From contig WJKD01000889.1 of assembly GCA_014729315.1 (NCBI GenBank), positions 1 to 9,835 on the forward strand: DNA of 9,835 bases, read 5' to 3'. A program made the position numbers and the translations under genes. The notes below the pieces were generated by a model, which did no database searches, was not told the origin of the DNA, and saw only the letters and a program-made list of their open reading frames with translations. Of the stretch, positions 3,060-9,835 are shown one piece after another (the first letter of the stretch is position 1; each line of letters opens with the position of its first letter). The stretch comes from Promethearchaeota archaeon (GTDB taxonomy: Archaea; Asgardarchaeota; Lokiarchaeia; Sigynarchaeales; SOKP01).

Positions 3060-3425
3060 ATGTTAGCTCAAAGACCCGTGCCGTGGATTGGTTTAACCGT
3101 TGGTATTTTAATTGTTTTTATACTCATTATCTTTTTTGTAGTGCTTTTTCTCTATACTATTTTCCTTAAAATCTCTTTATCATTAGTGTCTTCAAAAAAT
3201 AACGATTTTGGTGCGGTATTTATAACTGCATTACTTTGCGCTTTGGTGGGATGGATTCCGTGCCTTGGCTGCATTCTTCAATGGGTTATCATAAATTCTC
3301 GGCACGAGACGGGATTTGGAATGGCAATCGTGGTATGGATTTTAGCGATCGTGATCGGATGGATTATTGGTTTCTTTATCGCGTGGGCAATCATCGCTAC
3401 AATATATGGCGTTTCACTTTTTTAA
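3060..3425 (+). CDS. Small multi-helix membrane protein, paralogue of the 3582-3977 gene
   Basis: A 121-residue hydrophobic protein. I chose ATG 3060 over the in-frame TTG at 3024, because the paralogous gene on the other strand begins with the matching 'MLxQ' and the extra 12 residues are basic and unmatched. It has about four hydrophobic segments (roughly 9-32, 53-66, 68-78, 88-115). Residues 33-37 'TIFLK', 54-61 'FITALLCA' and 81-87 'RHETGFG' are the positions shared with the paralogue. A Pro/Gly/Cys-containing hairpin 'GWIPCLGCILQW' (64-75) is absent from the paralogue. No enzyme or transporter family is recognised; similar short membrane proteins exist in several archaea as far as I recall. 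The charged residues in 'RHETGFG' sit between helices, suggesting a re-entrant or interface loop. Function unknown. Confidence 0.75.
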   Translation: MLAQRPVPWIGLTVGILIVFILIIFFVVLFLYTIFLKISLSLVSSKNNDFGAVFITALLCALVGWIPCLGCILQWVIINSRHETGFGMAIVVWILAIVIGWIIGFFIAWAIIATIYGVSLF

Positions 3426-3581: not shown

Positions 3582-3977
3582 TCAGAGTATTATTGCCGCA
3601 GCACCTAAGAGAAATCCTATAACGAATATCAAAATTAAAGTTATTATAACTCCAAATACAATAGCTATAATAGTGACCGCAATAGCACCGCCAAATCCAG
3701 TTTTATGTCGGGCAGCTATAATCGCCCAACAAATGAGTAATCCTACTAATAGTGCTATAACTAACCATAAAAGTCCGCTAGGTAGAAGCCATATAAGTAA
3801 AAAGAACACAACTGCACATAATATAGCGGTAATAAACGCCTGACCAAATGATTGGTTTTCCGCATCTACGAAACTCAAGGCAAGTTTGAGAAAAATAGTG
3901 ATGAAAAGCAATAAGAAGATAAACAAAAGTACTAAAAGGATTATAGATGCTGTCGCGCTACCAATTTGTCCTAACAT
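3582..3977 (-). CDS. Small multi-helix membrane protein, paralogue of the 3060-3425 gene
   Basis: A 131-residue, almost wholly hydrophobic protein starting at ATG 3977. Predicted helices lie at about residues 10-35, 47-65, 67-88 and 97-124. It shares with the convergent neighbour the start 'MLxQ', 'TIFLK' (27-31), the following 'LxLSxV' segment with an acidic/Asn 'EN-x-x-FG' turn (about 40-45), 'FITAILCA' (48-55) and 'RHKTGFG' (90-96), in the same order and nearly the same spacing. This is clear homology rather than shared hydrophobicity. The middle differs: about nine more residues between FITAxLCA and RHxTGFG, and no Cys-Leu-Gly-Cys hairpin. Function is not recognised. The upstream minus-strand sequence has a TATA-like box at 4005-4013, placing the start site only a few bases before the ATG. 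Confidence 0.75.
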   Translation of the reverse strand: MLGQIGSATASIILLVLLFIFLLLFITIFLKLALSFVDAENQSFGQAFITAILCAVVFFLLIWLLPSGLLWLVIALLVGLLICWAIIAARHKTGFGGAIAVTIIAIVFGVIITLILIFVIGFLLGAAAIIL

Positions 3978-4020: not shown

Positions 4021-4432
4021 TTAATGAATATTAATTGTGTTTTTCCATATTTAATACTTCATCCTATAAAAATTACATAATATAGAGGAAGAAAAATCTA
4101 AGATATTCGTTATTAGTCTTCTCGTTAAAGCTGAAATGAGTGATTAAAAAATTTTTTGTTTCATTATTTTCTATCAATTTTTACTGTAATAACCTTTATA
4201 TAATTACTCTGAAATTTTTGTCGGAAGTTTTCGGCAATCTTTACAAGAGATTTTGCGTTTATTTTTACTTTCACTCACCCCTCCCCCCGTCCATGAAATA
4301 TCATTCCTTTTAAACCTATTATTCTTTCCCATCACCTTGGGTTTAGGCTTATTCTTCACAAAAAAGGGCGATTTTCAGAAAATTGTCGGAGTAACCCTAC
4401 TTTATTTTTAGCAATCATATATTATTTGTGCA
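4021..4432. other. Non-coding stretch with orphan TATA box and C-rich tract
   Basis: No convincing coding frame. Contents: a strong TATA-like box at 4191-4203 (ACCTTTATATAA) followed by no gene until 4433; an 8-base direct repeat TTGTCGGA at 4218-4225 and 4383-4390; a C-rich pyrimidine tract at 4270-4290, unusual in this AT-rich DNA; and a weak stem TAAACC (4311-4316) with GGTTTA (4340-4345). This could be a long leader, a regulatory region for the RadA-like gene, or a small RNA gene starting near 4225. None of these is proven. Confidence 0.4.
4401..4410 (+). promoter_or_regulatory. TATA box of the RadA-like gene
   Basis: TTTATTTTTA lies 23-32 nt before ATG 4433, so the transcript is probably leaderless; there is no Shine-Dalgarno in front of the start, which agrees. 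The repeat copy TTGTCGGA (4383-4390) sits ten bases upstream of the box, where an archaeal activator could act. The box resembles the one in front of the PolB2 operon in sequence and in distance to the ATG. Confidence 0.5.
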
Positions 4433-5185
4433 ATGGAATTTGATTCTGCTTTTAAAGTGTACAAAAAGAACGACAGTTTACCGCCGCTATCGAGTGGAGA
4501 TAAAACGCTCGACGAGTTGTTGGAAGGTGGATTCTGCCGAGATTTGATCTACCTCCTTTACGGTGACAAAGCAAAAACAACGAACGTCTTGCTCACGACA
4601 GCCGTACTCGCTCAGAAATCGTTCGTAAACGGAGGTCTCGGAGATGGAATAAAAGTAGCGTTTATCGATGGAAACAATCGCTTTAATCCGTATAATATAA
4701 GCAAGTACGCCGTTATCCAGCATCTGTCTCCACGAAGCGTTTTGGAAAACATTATCATCGCTCGTGCGTTTACCTGGGATCAAATGGTAGAACTTTTAGA
4801 AAACAGGCTGGCTAAGTTAGCCCATGTGAAAGTTGTTTTAGTTTCCGGAATTACTACGCTTTTTGAGAGCTACGAAAAACAAACGTTTGAAGACTTACTA
4901 AAAGCTATAGGCGGGATAAAAAAAATTCTTTCCAAAACAAAACCTCTGATTGTCTTAACTGCCCCTTTAAACGAATTCTCTACGTTTAGACCTAAAGGAG
5001 GGAAGATTCTCTCCCATTTTGGGAGCGTGCTGGTATTGATAGACGATAAAGAGCGTTTTACTGAATACATTCTTGTCCAACATCCGTTTTTACCGGAAAA
5101 TCGTCTTGTAAAGTGGAAGCCGCGTAAACCGAAACGAAAACTCTCAAATTCTTTGAAGAACACTACTTTAGACTGCTGGTTTTAA
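4433..5185 (+). CDS. RadA/Rad51-family paralogue with degenerate ATPase site and C-terminal PIP-like motif
   Basis: A 250-residue RecA-core protein without the N-terminal domain of true RadA, thus RadB-like in size. Family features: 'LSSGDKTLDELLEGGF' (19-34), the usual strand 1 lead-in; 'FIDGNNRFNPYNIS' (77-90), equivalent to the DTEGTFRPERI segment; 'VLENIIIARAFTWDQ' (103-117), the VLDNIYVARAY segment; and 'PKGGKILSHFGSVLV' (187-201), the GGNILAHAS region, then 'LPENRLVKW'. The ATPase residues are lost: the Walker A place reads 'YGDKAKTTN' (43-51) without GxxxxGKT, the Walker B Asp is S138 in 'VVLVSG', and the catalytic Glu is N81. It is therefore unlikely to hydrolyse ATP as RadA does. A basic linker (228-236) leads to the very end, 'NTTLDCWF' (243-250), which fits the PCNA-binding consensus Q-x-x-h-x-x-a-a with Asn for Gln. 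I infer a PCNA-tethered structural recombinase paralogue that works with PolB2. Confidence 0.82.
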   Translation: MEFDSAFKVYKKNDSLPPLSSGDKTLDELLEGGFCRDLIYLLYGDKAKTTNVLLTTAVLAQKSFVNGGLGDGIKVAFIDGNNRFNPYNISKYAVIQHLSPRSVLENIIIARAFTWDQMVELLENRLAKLAHVKVVLVSGITTLFESYEKQTFEDLLKAIGGIKKILSKTKPLIVLTAPLNEFSTFRPKGGKILSHFGSVLVLIDDKERFTEYILVQHPFLPENRLVKWKPRKPKRKLSNSLKNTTLDCWF

Positions 5186-5198
5186 GATAGACTAAAAT

Positions 5199-5206
5199 TT
5201 TTATAA
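5199..5206 (+). promoter_or_regulatory. Candidate TATA box of the M23 peptidase gene
   Basis: TTTTATAA predicts a start near 5230 and a leader of about 45 nt, long enough to hold the Shine-Dalgarno at 5257-5263. The predicted start falls just after the T-rich terminator of the preceding gene. Confidence 0.4.
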
Positions 5207-5212
5207 CACTAG

Positions 5213-5226
5213 TTTTATCTTTTTTG
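5213..5226 (+). terminator. T-rich terminator of the RadA-like gene
   Basis: TTTTATCTTTTTTG starts 28 nt after the TAA stop. It separates this gene from the interrupted peptidase gene, so the two are probably not one operon. Confidence 0.45.
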
Positions 5227-5256
5227 TAAGAAGTAAGAAATAGTTATAATTTGGCA

Positions 5257-5263
5257 AGGTGAT
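5257..5263 (+). promoter_or_regulatory. Shine-Dalgarno of the M23 peptidase gene
   Basis: AGGTGAT is complementary to the 3' end of archaeal 16S rRNA. The 12-nt gap to ATG 5276 is somewhat long but workable. It contrasts with the SD-less starts of the RadA-like and small coiled-coil genes and supports 5276 as the true start. Confidence 0.55.
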
Positions 5264-5275
5264 ATAAAAAAATCA

Positions 5276-5935
5276 ATGAAAAGCTGGTTTAAATTAGTTA
5301 TAGTATTTGGACTCATAACTGTTGTAGTTGTTGGAGGCGCAATTGTGGGGCTTCTTATTATTACTTCTGACGATGATAGAAATCTCGATACTGACGATGA
5401 CGGAGATGACGAGGCGATTTATCCCGATACGCTTCCATTGGGAGAAAGCCCATAACTATCCTTTCCTTTTAATTCATGTTCTTTTGATAATATCGATCAT
5501 ATCGGCGATTTTAGCCCAAGTCATAATGGGATTGACTTCAATGTTAACGAAAGTTCGGTCGTTCTCTGTCCACACGATGCGTATGTCTCCGATATTAGAT
5601 TCTACGAAAACGAATACGGAAATCATTGGCAGACGAATGTGAGGATTAGGTTGAATTCCCAATGGTATATAACCATGAAGTTTGAATCTTGGGCTGAAGA
5701 TCAGTATAATGGCACATTACAAAGAAATAATGTATCGGTCAGTGTCGGTGATAAAATATTAGCCAATCAGACCATGGGTAATTTGCTCTCGCACGGCCCA
5801 CATTCGCATCTACATTATGATGTGGATCGTAGCGGGACTTATGTGTGTCCCTATTCTTATTTTAGTCCCGACGCACAAGATAAGTTTGATCCCATCTACG
5901 ATAGATGTGGCGAGTCATCAACGCCCTGTCATTAA
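5276..5935 (+). pseudogene. Membrane-anchored M23-family metallopeptidase, interrupted by an in-frame TAA
   Basis: One frame of 219 residues runs from ATG 5276 to TAA 5933-5935, broken only by TAA at 5453-5455 (codon 60). Part before the stop: a short basic end, one transmembrane helix (about 6-30) and an acidic stalk rich in Asp (32-46), so the rest would be outside the cell. Part after the stop: an M23 (lysostaphin/LytM-like) peptidase domain with 'SHNGIDF' (H83, D87) and 'HSHLHYDV' (H178, H180), the H-x3-D and H-x-H zinc motifs, plus the 'VGDKILANQTMGNL' segment (157-170) equivalent to V-x-x-GD-x-V-x-x-GQ-x-IG. M23 enzymes cleave peptide cross-links or Gly-rich peptides; archaeal substrates are unclear. 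The frame is kept on both sides, so a single substitution (for example CAA to TAA) is enough. No in-frame start after the stop could restore H83/D87. Either a recent nonsense mutation, a base-call error or readthrough. Confidence 0.8.
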
Positions 5936-5946
5936 GCATTAAACCT

Positions 5947-5963
5947 TGTTTTTTTTCTTTTTC
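5947..5963 (+). terminator. T-rich terminator after the M23 gene
   Basis: TTGTTTTTTTTCTTTTT begins about 12 nt after the TAA, a good archaeal termination tract on the plus strand; its end abuts the stop codon of the convergent DUF3795 gene. Confidence 0.5.
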
Positions 5964-6376
5964 TACATTCCGGAATCTTTTTTCTCCAATGTCAAAGGAT
6001 CGCCACCGAACTTAACTTTTCTCCCATCGTAATATAGTATGGTTTTGTCTTCGCATATTTCGTTCCATTTGGCTATTCCGTGCTTTTGAATCATCAATAA
6101 GTTGTATATTTTCGAATTATGGGGGAGAAAAATCTCGAAATTGACAATAGGTTGAAGTTTTATGCACGGAAAGTCATCGCATTCGAAGCAAAATTTGTAT
6201 CCTTTTTCTGAAACGCACTGATAAGTTTTGCAAACGGGAAAGTCCTTTACTTTTCCTTCTTGTTGACGACATCCCTCACAGTTGTAAAATTTGACACCTG
6301 GACATCTCCTACAATAAATTCCACAAGGTGCGTGGTCATTCATATATACGCTCATATAACAATATCTACTCGTCAT
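5963..6376 (-). CDS. DUF3795-family cysteine-rich protein
   Basis: A 137-residue protein with the DUF3795 pattern: 'PCGIYCRRCPG' (C18, C22, C25), 'CEGCR' (C33, C36), then C49, C54 and 'FCFECDDFPC' (C63, C66, C71). Ten cysteines within 54 residues point to a bound metal, either zinc or an iron-sulfur cluster. The domain is common in anaerobic archaea and bacteria and has no assigned reaction. The C-terminal half (72-137) is without cysteine and resembles the tail seen in family members ('HGIAKWNEICED'). ATG 6376 is the longest start; M12 (ATG 6341-6343) is equally likely, since the conserved part begins only at P17 and a minus-strand TATA-like stretch lies at 6391-6410. It ends tail to tail with the peptidase gene and has no obvious partner here. 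Confidence 0.85.
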   Translation of the reverse strand: MTSRYCYMSVYMNDHAPCGIYCRRCPGVKFYNCEGCRQQEGKVKDFPVCKTYQCVSEKGYKFCFECDDFPCIKLQPIVNFEIFLPHNSKIYNLLMIQKHGIAKWNEICEDKTILYYDGRKVKFGGDPLTLEKKDSGM

Positions 6377-6483
6377 CTAATTGATTAGTAAAATATAATT
6401 TTTAATAAAAAGTTAATTTTGATGATATTATTAGATATGAAAATTCTTTATTGAAACCTATTTTAATATTCTTAGTGCTCTTA

Positions 6484-7467
6484 TTATAATCCCTCAATTA
6501 ATTTCTTAGCGTTATGATAGAGCCATTTTCTTTTTACTTCTTCTTTTAACGGTAATTTCATCACGCCTTTTGCTAATTTCTTTATTCCCGTGCCCATAAA
6601 AAGCCATGTTGATCCAAACAGGATTTGATCTTGCAATTTTGAATTTCCTAAATTCATCAACGGTTCCCATCCAGAACCCTTCATTCCAAGATATTTGGGG
6701 AGATAAGAAGCAATATCGATGTAAACATTTTTATTCCTCCACGCAACAGCAACCATCTCGTTAACCCATGGCCATCCCCCGTGCCCTGCAATCATTTTTA
6801 ATTCCGGAAAATCTTGAGCAACTATGTCCAGATTTATTGGTCTTTCAACTTCCATTGAATGAGTAGAAAAATTGATTGAAAGGTGAAACCATATAGGAAT
6901 CCCAAGCTCAACACATGTCGAGTAGATAGGATACATTTTGGCGTGTGTAGGAGGGATTCTAAACATGAAAGGTCTGACAGCAACCCCTCTGAGGCCTAAA
7001 TCGTAGGAGCGTCTGATTTCTCTTACCGCGTCCATCCCTTTTAAGGGATCGATACCCGCAAAACCTACAAATTTATCGGGATATTGGTTAACTAAGTCGG
7101 CGTAATAATCGTTGGGGAGCCCCGCAATCCCACTTGGAGTTTCTTCGTCTAAATTAAAAATAATCGCCTTTTCTACTCCTATCTTATTGAGATGAGCAAC
7201 AAATTCTTCTACAGTCATAGTTAACTTTTGAATCTTATCTCCATAGTTCGTAATCATTTCTTTACGAAGCTCGTCTGGAGATAACGAAACCTTCATTGAA
7301 TATAATTCGTTAGCGGTAATACCAAATAAAGGTGCAACGCGAGGACCAAAAATATCTCTGAGATACGGGGCCATCTGCGGAGGTAGAGACACCAGAAGAT
7401 CCACTAAAACTTCTTCAGTTGGGACGTAGCAAAGTGAATCGATTATCGGCTCTTTTTTTTCGGTCAT
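6484..7467 (-). CDS. Amidohydrolase-family (Amidohydro_2-like) TIM-barrel protein with missing metal ligands
   Basis: A 327-residue protein of the amidohydrolase type related to ACMSD/resorcylate decarboxylases. Recognisable segments: 'KFVGFAGIDPLKGMDAVREI' (132-151), 'GLRGVAVRPF' (158-167), 'LGIPIWFHLS' (188-197) with H195, 'PELKMIAGHGGWPWVNEMVA' (221-240) with H229, 'NVYIDIASY' (247-255) and the C-terminal 'NAKKLI'. In the family, metal is held by an N-terminal D-x-H-x-H, the two later histidines and the Asp in 'GSDxP'. Here the N-terminal motif reads 'IIDSLCYVP' (8-16) with no histidine, and 'FGSTW' (284-288) has Thr in place of Asp. H195 and H229 remain. The protein may bind metal differently, catalyse an atypical decarboxylation/hydrolysis, or be a non-enzyme. 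ATG 7467 has a TATA box 24-33 nt upstream. It diverges from the PolB2 operon. Confidence 0.8.
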   Translation of the reverse strand: MTEKKEPIIDSLCYVPTEEVLVDLLVSLPPQMAPYLRDIFGPRVAPLFGITANELYSMKVSLSPDELRKEMITNYGDKIQKLTMTVEEFVAHLNKIGVEKAIIFNLDEETPSGIAGLPNDYYADLVNQYPDKFVGFAGIDPLKGMDAVREIRRSYDLGLRGVAVRPFMFRIPPTHAKMYPIYSTCVELGIPIWFHLSINFSTHSMEVERPINLDIVAQDFPELKMIAGHGGWPWVNEMVAVAWRNKNVYIDIASYLPKYLGMKGSGWEPLMNLGNSKLQDQILFGSTWLFMGTGIKKLAKGVMKLPLKEEVKRKWLYHNAKKLIEGL

Positions 7468-7490
7468 TATTCATTGAATTCGTGTTTAGA

Positions 7491-7500
7491 ATTTATATTA
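7491..7500 (-). promoter_or_regulatory. TATA box of the amidohydrolase-like gene
   Basis: Minus-strand TAATATAAAT lies 24-33 nt upstream of ATG 7467, predicting a leaderless or very short-leader transcript. The 123-bp divergent gap also holds the PolB2-operon promoter. Confidence 0.45.
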
Positions 7501-7555
7501 CTTTTCATTATTGAAAAAATTAATAACAAATTAGAAATTCGACGGCGTTGTATCT

Positions 7556-7564
7556 TTTTTATTT
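7556..7564 (+). promoter_or_regulatory. TATA box of the PolB2 operon
   Basis: TTTTTATTT is 27-35 nt before ATG 7591, and no Shine-Dalgarno precedes that ATG, so the operon mRNA is probably leaderless. The element AAATT-N3-CGG (7535-7545) upstream recalls AAATT-N2-CGG (4380-4389) upstream of the RadA-like gene. Confidence 0.5.
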
Positions 7565-7590
7565 CATAAGGCACTATTCTACGCAATATC

Positions 7591-7863
7591 ATGGGTCGAA
7601 CGGTTCCGAGCTTCAGACCGGCGCTTGAACACGAAATTGAAAGTTGGAAAGATTTCAAACGCGCTTTAAGACCTGAAGACGAAAAGATTTTTAATAAATT
7701 AATGAATTTTGCCCGGATCCACGCGGATGCGGGTAGTCTAAGCGCAAGGCCGATGCTCTCCGAAGTTCTCTTTATGTCTTTTGCGATTGAACAGGAGAAA
7801 AAAATCGAGAAATTAGAAGCAACGATAAAAGAATTGGAAAAAACAATTAAGGAACGCGAATAA
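7591..7863 (+). CDS. Small coiled-coil protein encoded directly upstream of PolB2
   Basis: A 90-residue charged protein starting at ATG 7591. The N-terminal two thirds look like a compact helical domain with 'GRTVPSFRPALEHEIESW' (2-19), 'FARIHADAGS' (40-49) and 'ARP' (52-54); I recall small archaeal proteins with this opening but no assigned function. The last part (67-90), 'EQEKKIEKLEATIKELEK' and on, is a classic coiled coil with Leu/Ile every three to four residues, so the protein likely dimerises or binds a partner helix. No DNA-binding HTH or metal site is evident. Its stop codon is one base from the TTG start of PolB2, so the two are translationally coupled and probably act together; a role as a PolB2 accessory or regulatory subunit is inference from position. 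Confidence 0.8.
   Translation: MGRTVPSFRPALEHEIESWKDFKRALRPEDEKIFNKLMNFARIHADAGSLSARPMLSEVLFMSFAIEQEKKIEKLEATIKELEKTIKERE
7849..7856 (+). promoter_or_regulatory. Shine-Dalgarno-like site for PolB2
   Basis: AAGGAACG within the last codons of the small coiled-coil gene lies about 8 nt before TTG 7865. With the one-base gap between the genes it supports coupled translation and the choice of TTG as the start. Confidence 0.4.
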
Positions 7864-7864
7864 A

Positions 7865-9835
7865 TTGGTCTTTCAAAAAGAATTCGACGGATGGCTATTA
7901 GACATATCTTTATCTGGTGATGGAGTTGTACTCTGGGTGAAAACGCAAAGTGAAAAAAAAGTAGTAAGGATTTATCAATCCTTTCACCCTGAATTTTTTG
8001 CGGTCGTAAATAAAAAAATTGGTTGCGACTACGTACAACTAAAACGCATACTTAAGTCCCATCCTGATGTAAGAAGTGTACGGATGTGCTTAAAATATGT
8101 TAAACTTGAAGATCAAAAAAAAACTGATGTGTTTGGAGTCACGGTAGACAAACCCTCGCGGTTTAAAAATACCATTAAAGATATTGATAAAATGGGATTT
8201 TTTACGCTCTATAACACCGATCTTCCCATTGCTCAGATGTATTTTTATGTGAATGATTTATTCCCGATGGCGTTCTGTCGGTTTAAAGTCAAAATCAAAA
8301 AAACAAGAGAAGAAAAGAAAGACCTTATTCGTTTAATTTCTTTAGAATTGAAAGATAATAACGAAGAGCTTTTTTACGATCTTCCCCCCTTAAAAGCCGT
8401 TTGGTTGGATGTGAAAATTCAGACTAAAGACCTTAGGTCGTATTATAACGATCCAATTTCGCATATCGAAATTAGTCTCGTTGAAGAGGACAAAGAAAAT
8501 AATATTCCAAGGGCAGACGGTGTAAAAAAAACCAGAATAATTGTAGATAAAGCAGATGAAGTAGAAACCCTTAAAGAAGTGAGTAGAATAATAGAAAAAA
8601 TTAATCCCGATATCATTCTAACTCGTGGTGGCGACGAATTTCTCCTTCCCTATCTCGTTGCGCGTGCGTCATATAATCGAATTTCAAAAGATCTCTATTT
8701 TTCTCGAAATAAGACGCCGTTAAAATACTGCATATTTGATCTCTCGGGGGGATCGGATCATTATATGTCCTACGGTATTATAAGGCAACGTTCAAAAACC
8801 CAAGTTTATTTGACGGGCAGATTTCATTTAGACACAAGCACTTATGGGAGCTTGCATTTCACCGAGGGAAACATCCCTGGTGTGATAGAGGTAGCGCGCG
8901 TCTCTCGCGTCTCTTTACAAAGATTATGTCGTATTACGATTGGAGGTGCACTTCAGTCTATACAGTATTATTACGCTTACAAGCTTGACCATTTGATTCC
9001 GCCATTCAAAAAAAGTCCTGAAGACTTCAGAACGGGTATTGATTTGATAAAGGGAGATAGAGGGGGTCATATTTTTGAACCGATAATCGGCGTATTCGAT
9101 CAAGTTGTTGAAGTGGACTTTTCGTCTATGTATCCCTCCTTAATGGCAAATTATAACATATCGTCAGAAACCCTTAATTGTAAGTGCTGTAAAGACGATG
9201 GATCGGCAATAAAAGTTCCAGGACTTGATTTTCACATCTGTACCAAAAGAGAAGGAATTATAGCAAAATCAATACAACTTCCTCTTCAAAAAAGATTAGA
9301 TTGCAAAAGACATGTGAGAAAAACAGGAGATTTAAGATATAAATTTACCGATATTGCGTTAAAATGGGTATTAGTAGTAAGTTTTGGATATTTAGGATTC
9401 AGAAATGCGCGTTTTGGCAAGATCGAAGCGCATCAAACCGTATGCGCCTTTGCCCGAGAATTTCTCATGAGGTCTGCTGAAATCGCAAAATCATATGGAT
9501 GTCGAATTATTCACGGTATAGTTGATTCGTTATGGCTACAAGATACAAAAAGTCGTTCTCCTGAAGAATTTGAACACGTAACTAGAATTATTGCAGATAA
9601 AATAACCGAAGAAACGAGAATTCCAATGAGTTGGGATGGTAGATTCAACCTCATAGCGTTTCTTCCTTCAAGAATAGAACCAGATGTACCTACGCTCAAC
9701 CATTACTGGGGTATTAAAAACAACGGAGAAGTAAAAGTAAGAGGAATTGAAATACGACGAAGAGACGCACCTCAAATAGTTAAAAACGCCCAACGCGCAT
9801 TTATAAATGTGTTTCAAGGAGCAACAGTTGTAGAA
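7865..9835 (+). CDS. polB2: PolB2: inactivated-type archaeal B-family DNA polymerase (3' end outside window)
   Basis: 657 residues are visible from TTG 7865 with no stop before the right edge; perhaps 50-150 residues are missing. The start fits because the protein opens with the family-like 'FDGWLLDIS..GDGVVLWVK'. Exonuclease: Exo I reads 'WLDVK' (180-184), Glu of D-x-E replaced by K184; Exo II reads 'RGGDEFLLPYL' (254-264), with Asn and catalytic Asp of NGDNFDLPYL replaced by G255 and L260. Polymerase: motif A 'DFSSMYPS' (D418) is intact; motif B 'KWVLVVSFGYLG' (500-511) keeps the Lys but has VV for NS and Phe for Tyr; motif C is 'HGIVDSLW' (550-557) instead of YGDTDS, losing the first Asp but keeping D554. 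'KVRGIEIRRRD' (624-634) is the KxRG thumb motif. Cys 439, 441, 442 and 459 could bind zinc. This is the pattern of the PolB2 family, described as inactivated but later reported active in lesion bypass for Sulfolobales Dpo2. Confidence 0.9.
   Translation, partial: MVFQKEFDGWLLDISLSGDGVVLWVKTQSEKKVVRIYQSFHPEFFAVVNKKIGCDYVQLKRILKSHPDVRSVRMCLKYVKLEDQKKTDVFGVTVDKPSRFKNTIKDIDKMGFFTLYNTDLPIAQMYFYVNDLFPMAFCRFKVKIKKTREEKKDLIRLISLELKDNNEELFYDLPPLKAVWLDVKIQTKDLRSYYNDPISHIEISLVEEDKENNIPRADGVKKTRIIVDKADEVETLKEVSRIIEKINPDIILTRGGDEFLLPYLVARASYNRISKDLYFSRNKTPLKYCIFDLSGGSDHYMSYGIIRQRSKTQVYLTGRFHLDTSTYGSLHFTEGNIPGVIEVARVSRVSLQRLCRITIGGALQSIQYYYAYKLDHLIPPFKKSPEDFRTGIDLIKGDRGGHIFEPIIGVFDQVVEVDFSSMYPSLMANYNISSETLNCKCCKDDGSAIKVPGLDFHICTKREGIIAKSIQLPLQKRLDCKRHVRKTGDLRYKFTDIALKWVLVVSFGYLGFRNARFGKIEAHQTVCAFAREFLMRSAEIAKSYGCRIIHGIVDSLWLQDTKSRSPEEFEHVTRIIADKITEETRIPMSWDGRFNLIAFLPSRIEPDVPTLNHYWGIKNNGEVKVRGIEIRRRDAPQIVKNAQRAFINVFQGATVVE

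Follow-up and report, generated by a model that had tools for sequence, protein, structure and literature searches.

Makarova et al. (2014; PMC4104785) predicted an operon of PolB2, a protein of arCOG07300 and an inactivated RadA. Timinskas et al. (2025; PMC11791011) modelled a heteropentamer of PolB2, the RadA relative iRadA and three PPB2 molecules, named the PolB2 mutasome; according to the passages of that paper covered here, PPB2 makes its modelled contacts through the MGRT arm and PolB2 through a Rad51-oligomerisation-like motif. The same passages include interspersed variants in the published set, reported as rare, describe clamp tails on both iRadA and PolB2 in one species as rare, and compare the complex with E. 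coli Pol V (UmuD'2C-RecA), in which a polymerase likewise sits on a RecA/RAD51-family protein via an oligomerisation-like motif and a small accessory protein takes part. Pol V differs in its Y-family polymerase, its active RecA and its UmuD' dimer, and no kinship between UmuD' and PPB2 is claimed. The ImuA-ImuB-DnaE2 set, too, pairs an error-prone polymerase linked to the clamp with a RecA-like protein, DnaE2 belonging to the C family and ImuB to the Y family.

Here we describe a locus of this kind in 9,835 nucleotides of DNA from a Promethearchaeota archaeon (contig WJKD01000889.1), hereafter the window. The original prediction had proposed that a RadA-like protein, a small coiled-coil protein and PolB2 form a lesion-bypass complex analogous to ImuA-ImuB-DnaE2. 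The idea agrees with the published, computationally modelled PolB2 mutasome but is not new, and the analogy holds as far as a polymerase with a RecA-like partner goes, although the published comparison is with Pol V. ImuA-ImuB-DnaE2 as the family was rejected, since the window polymerase belongs to the B family (DNA_pol_B) and not to the C family of DnaE2; no Y-family protein was found among the window open reading frames (ORFs) run against Pfam. Judged from their sequences, the three proteins are iRadA, PPB2 and PolB2, parts of a known system. The locus is very probably a Lokiarchaeal PolB2 mutasome laid out as two separate units, iRadA and PPB2-PolB2, with a common promoter box and PCNA-binding-like tails. 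What distinguishes the Lokiarchaeal form from the published mutasome is that iRadA is mostly split off, that the two units have a common promoter box, that both iRadA and PolB2 carry tails, and that iRadA has an FxxA motif. The box, the FxxA motif kept in iRadA and the double tails of Lokiarchaeia were not found described in the openly licensed literature, supplements lying outside it; that literature includes passages of PMC11791011, PMC4104785, PMC12926913 and PMC8764526. The words Asgard and Lokiarchaeota are absent from the main text of PMC11791011, the part of that source covered, and PolB2 is not mentioned in the best-matching openly licensed literature on Asgard archaea or Lokiarchaeota.

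The three proteins and their gene order

The iRadA frame matches Pfam Rad51 with an E value of 1.8e-16 and solved RadA/RAD51 chains with 1.2e-12 at best. Walker A of P. furiosus RadA (GEFGSGKT) aligns with GDKAK-TT, and the Walker B Asp of RadA with a Ser (VVLVSGIT), so that the predicted RadA-like protein without Walker residues was borne out. None of 48 Lokiarchaeal iRadA rows, two of which are short fragments, showed GK[ST] or the Walker B Asp. As in the mutasome, the protein has the RadA fold, lacks the N-terminal helical domain and has lost the ATPase residues. Its AlphaFold2 (AF2) model reaches a predicted local distance difference test score (pLDDT) of 88.5, with 62 for residues 1-10, and shows an extended start followed by a helix at residues 6-15. 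The best structural match puts model residue 2 on RAD51 residue 85, and most of the top structural-alignment rows begin at model residue 1 or 2 on RAD51 84-85. Canonical RadA was rejected as the identity of this protein on NCBIfam scores (60.3 bits against a cut-off of 259, 54.2 against 361.15) and on the missing Walker residues and N-domain, and RadB on scores of 38.1 bits against 172.4 and 29.2 against 278. RadB and the RAD51 paralogues resemble iRadA in having a RadA-type core without the N-terminal domain (RadB and XRCC2, in passages of PMC7618403), but iRadA differs from RadB in retaining the joining motif while having lost the ATPase residues. Alignments to the NCBIfam RAD51, DMC1 and RadA profiles begin at iRadA residue 1-2, those to the RadB profiles only at 19-26, and the RadB models therefore contain no joining motif.

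A search of proteins with iRadA alignment A1 gave 483 matches, the best 120 of which are each 70-100% identical to window iRadA; a second search, with other Asgard iRadA rows, gave 75, the named ones nearly all Asgard and one Candidatus Deferrimicrobium. Some Lokiarchaeal genomes carry second iRadA copies (L128 at 9002-9730 on the minus strand, L146, L147, L148, L149), and one genome (G161) has six iRadA-like matches. Fragments corresponding to about the last 50 iRadA residues lie shortly downstream of the intact gene in L022 (4869-5021) and L053 (6827-6961).

The predicted coupled pair of a small protein and PolB2 on the strand of the RadA relative is indeed present: one base separates PPB2 from the TTG start of PolB2, which matches Pfam DNA_pol_B (E 3.2e-16) and an exonuclease domain (5.5e-11). 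The small protein is presumably helical, but it is not just any coiled coil, its MGRT start being the PPB2 signature. Under script-chosen start codons all 55 PPB2 rows begin with xGRT (MGRT 43, CGRT 7, IGRT 4, VGRT 1). Among the 58 Lokiarchaeal PolB2 rows, IVD stands in the place of DxD in 54, the other 4 being cut or frame-broken ahead of motif C; DRGG is present in 56 (2 are cut before it) and is preceded by Fxx[GAS] in 50. The AF2 model of PolB2 was poor (pLDDT 62.8) and was not used. In L089 (about 5942-7528) the PolB2 frame is matched in two pieces, with about 529 intein-like residues between them at the conserved SFGYLGF. To judge by these signatures, the window matches the mutasome feature by feature: the three families, the MGRT arm, FRTG followed by DR where the published system has a Rad51-like motif followed by D(R/K), IVD with the DxD lost, and a dead, N-domain-less RadA relative with a clamp-like tail (passages of PMC4104785 and PMC11791011).

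Relatives of window PolB2 were found in 57 loci at 61-81% identity, 56 from Candidatus Lokiarchaeota/Lokiarchaeia and one (L054) named 'bacterium'; by this likeness the window is itself Lokiarchaeal. iRadA was found in 47 of these loci; in the remaining 10 the contig breaks off 0.3-3.3 kb ahead of PPB2 or else close to or within PolB2. In 46 of the 47, iRadA precedes PPB2 in the same orientation, at distances of 39 bp to 7.4 kb; in L040 it is downstream and inverted. With the window counted, 4 loci have a gap below 300 bp and 43 a gap of 543 bp to 7.4 kb. Thus 43 of the 48 Lokiarchaeal loci have iRadA set apart from PPB2-PolB2; the genes share one neighbourhood and strand, and strict adjacency is seen in only 4 loci. 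All split gaps except those of L009 and L019 hold one or more minus-strand ORFs (41/43). Where iRadA is upstream and co-oriented, window included, a DUF3795 family occurs in the gap of 34/47 loci and an amidohydrolase family in that of 18/47, always on the minus strand, while the plus strand carries some of the other gap genes. This repeated presence of the same minus-strand families makes the gap look like an inherited feature in which genes were gained and lost, and a random insertion hotspot was rejected on the same ground. In a PolB2 tree of 44 rows, rooted at the midpoint for display only, the contiguous loci L043 and L044, with a gap of 39 bp, sit on the longest inner branch, and the nearly adjacent L014 and L047 are surrounded by split loci. 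Of the three unrelated genes that the original prediction placed in the gap, two are intact opposite-strand genes and the third is one broken-looking frame. The separation was thought to weaken the case; the genes are split, but this is usual in Lokiarchaeia and is offset by the common promoter box.

Outside Lokiarchaeia, iRadA usually adjoins PPB2 or is unlinked. In 40 regions around PPB2 from other Asgard genomes it is near PPB2 in 18 and absent in 22; it adjoins PPB2 in 17 of the 18 and lies about 1.4 kb off in L088. One Asgard clade (L119-L127, L135-L142), represented among the 22, has PPB2 and PolB2 together in all regions but L125, and iRadA, starting with FxTA, elsewhere in the genome. 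Three regions (L102, L104, L105) show an iRadA-PPB2 pair without adjoining PolB2, and two of the three genomes (G086, G087) have PolB2 elsewhere. The proposed check on co-occurrence was passed: among 227 Asgard genomes, PPB2 was found in 130, PolB2 in 135, iRadA in 116, all three in 106 and none in 82, under hand-chosen thresholds and as raw counts with respect to kinship and genome completeness. One weak PPB2 match (G013, E 0.005) was dropped from 131, and the iRadA limit of about 5e-35 was set by hand to separate iRadA from canonical RadA.

A putative promoter box ahead of iRadA and PPB2

Ahead of iRadA the element reads YAGAAAATTGTCGGNGTA and then runs into a T-rich stretch. PPB2 is preceded by an element of the same build, in which GTA and the T-rich stretch keep equal spacing. 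The exact core AAAATTGTCG occurs in 41 of 46 iRadA upstreams (2 of 48 were too short to count); of the five without it, L031 and L049 are cut genes, and L040, L043 and L044 carry variants. With a matrix built solely from the iRadA sites, 26 of 55 PPB2 upstreams outscore every one of 470 control upstreams, which were drawn from the same loci and precede ATG-started ORFs of at least 120 aa, some of them possibly inside operons. The Mann-Whitney p of 2e-26 for the PPB2 matrix scores is too small, because the rows are related. In the window the PPB2 box scores 7.5, compared with -2.5 for the best of the 470 controls; the relaxed core AGAAANTTNNCGNNGT has 2 matches in the window, a number that 13 of 200 shuffles reach. 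The exact motif YAGAAAATT was found in 37/45 iRadA, 30/55 PPB2 and 4/468 control upstreams, and with one mismatch allowed in 41/45, 45/55 and 72/468, respectively. L043 and L044, which are contiguous, have a PPB2 without the box and the lowest matrix scores; L014 and L047 have a box-like element before PPB2 with low scores of -11.3 and -15.6.

The box was also searched for in 20 whole Lokiarchaeal genomes picked by hand (about 76 Mb). The form YAGAAAATTNTCGNNGTA gave 17 exact matches in 16 of the 20, compared with 2 for the reversed pattern, and by their positions all 17 lie upstream of iRadA (14) or PPB2 (3), none elsewhere. A wider regulon is not claimed, as matches with 1-2 mismatches are no commoner than in the control. 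The Sulfolobales A(N)TTTC element, as given in passages of PMC5817253 and PMC9738581, was considered as a relative, but a link is not claimed: within the box its hexamer occurs, as we read it, only on the opposite strand, and it is short for AT-rich DNA. We infer from position and sequence that the box may act on transcription, co-regulating the two units in place of co-transcription where the unit is split.

The FxxA-type motif and the clamp-binding-like tails

FxxA is the motif that joins RadA and RAD51 protomers, according to the part of PMC5117717 covered. iRadA has lost the RadA N-terminal domain yet begins just ahead of this motif. In 43 Lokiarchaeal iRadA rows anchored on the conserved SSG glycine, position -19 is F/Y in 39, position -17 S in 37 and position -16 G in 42 or A in 1, and no gap separates these positions from the anchor in any of the 43. 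Five of the 48 rows were left out: L031, L049 and L056 are N-terminally cut, and in L047 and L051, which both read FKSG, the pattern missed the anchor. Three Lokiarchaeal RadA proteins have FKSA in the same alignment columns. The motif is kept in 116 of 120 further iRadA, those 70-100% identical to the window protein; the four exceptions are FDSG and FNSG, which the pattern failed to catch, and two cases of FELG.

The FxxA survey covered Asgard iRadA. Groups just 22-34% identical to the window protein mostly keep F[VI]EA, W/FxSA or FxTA at this place: F[VI]EA predominates in Helarchaeota-type and W/FxSA in Hodarchaeales-type iRadA, and FxTA is found in 8/8 of the clade with unlinked iRadA. The pattern [FWY]x[STE][AG] occurs in 16 of 24 non-Lokiarchaeal N-termini (mean 1.4 and maximum 7 in 2000 shuffles), the looser [FWYIML]x[STP][AG] in 20 of 24 (mean 4.5, maximum 11); both patterns were written after viewing the sequences, and the rows are related. 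Weaker forms are present in L088 (WRSS) and L143 (YRSS), L104, L105, L106 and L114 fit the looser pattern only, and among these 24 N-termini L115-L117 show no such motif. By sequence, then, iRadA retains the filament-joining motif of RadA in Lokiarchaeia and in most other Asgard groups seen. The ARAF site of iRadA, which we take to correspond to the site where RadA/RAD51 accept FxxA, is conserved: at least 90% of 43 Asgard rows (alignment A5) have R111 and at least 90% have F113. The joining-like motif of PolB2 changes by clade (FxxG, FRPA, FQTV, LKSI) whereas that of iRadA stays mostly RadA-like, which suggests that the two motifs may serve different pockets. The term FxxA has no occurrence in the main text of PMC11791011, its supplement lying outside this statement.

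The PCNA-binding-like tail predicted for the RadA relative is found at its C-terminus, KNTTLDCWF. An Nxx[LI]xx[WF]-type ending is present in 46 of 48 Lokiarchaeal iRadA, L029 and L057 lacking its first residue. The original prediction had made the RadA paralogue the clamp tether; in this lineage that is half of the picture, as Lokiarchaeal PolB2 too ends in Qxx[LIM]xx[FYW], in 50 of 50 complete rows. The 8 PolB2 rows left out comprise six cut by contig ends, that of the window, whose tail lies beyond the window end, and the frame-broken L049. Both proteins bear the tail motif in 38 of 40 loci where both tails are readable. A common longer pattern fits 46/48 iRadA and 43/50 PolB2, as against 1.9% and 2.5% of shuffled tails. 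On these endings, Lokiarchaeia look like an exception to the reported rarity of double clamp tails.

Features of the window (coordinates on the forward strand)
Feature	Position	Strand	Remark
Promoter box upstream of iRadA (TTTTCAGAAAATTGTCGGAGTAACCCTACTTTATTTTTAG)	4372..4411	+	exact match to AGAAAATTGTCGGNGTA at 4377-4393
iRadA (ATPase-dead, N-domain-less RadA/RAD51 homologue)	4433..5185	+	250 aa
F3-D-S-A6, FxxA-type filament-joining motif	4439..4450	+	19 residues before conserved SSG glycine, as in RadA
Degenerate Walker A GDKAKTTN	4562..4585	+	alignments to RadA
ARAF	4760..4771	+	R-A-F invariant in iRadA alignment A1
PCNA-binding-like C-terminal tail NTTLDCWF of iRadA	5159..5182	+	
DUF3795 gene in iRadA-PPB2 gap	5963..6376	-	Pfam; intact
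Amidohydrolase gene in iRadA-PPB2 gap	6484..7467	-	Pfam Amidohydro_2; intact
Second promoter box, upstream of PPB2 (AAATTAGAAATTCGACGGCGTTGTATCTTTTTTATTTCAT)	7528..7567	+	one mismatch to relaxed core AGAAANTTNNCGNNGT at 7533-7548
PPB2 (arCOG07300-type), N-terminal MGRT arm	7591..7863	+	90 aa; signature from PMC11791011
PolB2, start TTG 7865, truncated by window end	7865..9835	+	Pfam; 657 aa visible
FRTG, place of PolB2 Rad51-oligomerisation-like motif	9026..9037	+	before DR motif 9056-9061; role according to passages of PMC11791011
Motif C IVD in place of DxD, first Asp gone	9518..9526	+	

Elsewhere in the window, a plus-strand stretch at about 5280-5935 combines a membrane-anchor-like start with an M23-peptidase-like frame and looks like one gene with a frame change; its M23-peptidase match is weak (Pfam E 0.0014, below the cut-off). 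Two small membrane proteins at 3060-3422 (+) and 3582-3977 (-), similar by eye, face each other; a Pfam search of the two gave no match.

What iRadA may hold together

Several observations weigh against a mutasome of two units tied by a box. The opposite-strand gene in nearly all split gaps makes a single operon unlikely. The PPB2 boxes are looser, with 10 of 55 upstreams lacking even the one-mismatch YAGAAAATT that the 72 control upstreams have. Four of the 20 Lokiarchaeal genomes are without an exact box, two of these having a one-mismatch box at iRadA. In the whole genomes one-mismatch matches number 64, as against 89 for the control, and a longer form of the box with two mismatches gives 32 against 31, of which we place 16 of the 32 ahead of iRadA or PPB2. 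Neither 16 non-Lokiarchaeal Asgard iRadA nor the three second iRadA copies examined (L128, L146, L147) showed the box upstream, and a regulator for it was not found. Co-occurrence has its exceptions: PPB2 without PolB2 in 7 genomes and without iRadA in 19, PolB2 without PPB2 in 12 and iRadA without PPB2 in 5. The loci are related, so that the counts overstate independence. The two-unit mutasome outlined at the start may work as follows. A common regulator would read the box ahead of both units, and the separated genes would be made together. According to the models in the passages of PMC11791011, the Fxx[GA] motif of PolB2 would plug into the iRadA pocket, one PPB2 arm would lie between PolB2 and iRadA near the active site, and the mutasome would extend damaged primer ends. 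The C-terminal tails of iRadA and PolB2 would hold the complex on PCNA. In the portions of PMC7618403 covered, the 5' ends of RAD51 filaments are capped by complexes of RAD51 paralogues, and one protomer inserts its F86 into a pocket of its neighbour. The filament end opposite to the capped one may then offer an empty pocket; the iRadA hook would enter that RadA pocket and PolB2 the iRadA pocket, placing RadA filament, iRadA and PolB2 in series. We put forward, tentatively and as somewhat less probable than not, that iRadA is a three-way adaptor, with the FxxA hook for the RadA filament end, the core pocket for PolB2 and PPB2 and the tail for PCNA, while the box keeps the separated genes in step. 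The motifs and their conservation are observed; the contacts and the polarity are what we infer.

It is very improbable that the three genes lie together by chance and work independently. Unrelated opposite-strand genes do split them in the window, and one Asgard clade has iRadA elsewhere in the genome; against this stand the co-occurrence, the lasting same-strand order, the common promoter box and the adjacency of iRadA to PPB2 in other Asgard groups. Within the mutasome two roles of the hook deserve comparison. If iRadA is a bivalent adaptor, its FxxA would enter the pocket of the last RadA protomer and PolB2 would enter that of iRadA, which would put the polymerase at the filament tip in a Pol V-like manner. 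This possibility, likewise somewhat less probable than not, extends the two-unit mutasome and does not compete with it. It agrees with the conserved Lokiarchaeal motif (43/43 anchored; 116/120 further) and its match to the FKSA of Lokiarchaeal RadA, with the RadA-like motif in most non-Lokiarchaeal iRadA (16/24; FxTA 8/8), with RAD51/DMC1/RadA profiles that reach residue 1-2 where RadB profiles do not, with the clade-wise change of the PolB2 motif beside a mostly RadA-like iRadA motif, with the extended start and helix 6-15 of the AF2 model and its alignment from RAD51 84-85, and with the capping of filament ends by RAD51 paralogue complexes in the passages of PMC7618403. The low pLDDT of residues 1-10 and the missing (L115-L117) or weaker (L088, L143, L104, L105, L106, L114) forms speak against it, and in the published models PolB2 itself misfits RadA (score 0.28; passages of PMC11791011). 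Moreover, the fourth residue of the motif is nearly always Gly in Lokiarchaeia, as in Lokiarchaeal PolB2, which would also fit docking of iRadA on iRadA. Such self-association, in which the hook would compete with PolB2 for the pocket and the complex would be stored or regulated, has the conserved ARAF site of iRadA and the alikeness of the Lokiarchaeal iRadA (FxSG) and PolB2 (FxxG) motifs in its favour. We regard it as rather unlikely, since outside Lokiarchaeia the motifs differ within a clade, e.g., FxTA vs. LK[TS][VIMA], and the published pentamer, in the passages of PMC11791011 covered, has a single iRadA.

As a candidate damage-response element of Asgard archaea, the box at the two promoters is a specific one; none was found described in the openly licensed literature searched. 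The FxxA motif kept in iRadA offers a link, concrete and open to mutation, from the recombination filament to a mutagenic polymerase. If the proposed adaptor role is true, RadA filaments on damaged DNA would directly recruit and position an archaeal translesion polymerase, and this would provide a parallel to bacterial Pol V and to the paralogue-capped RAD51 filaments of eukaryotes in the archaea closest to eukaryotes.

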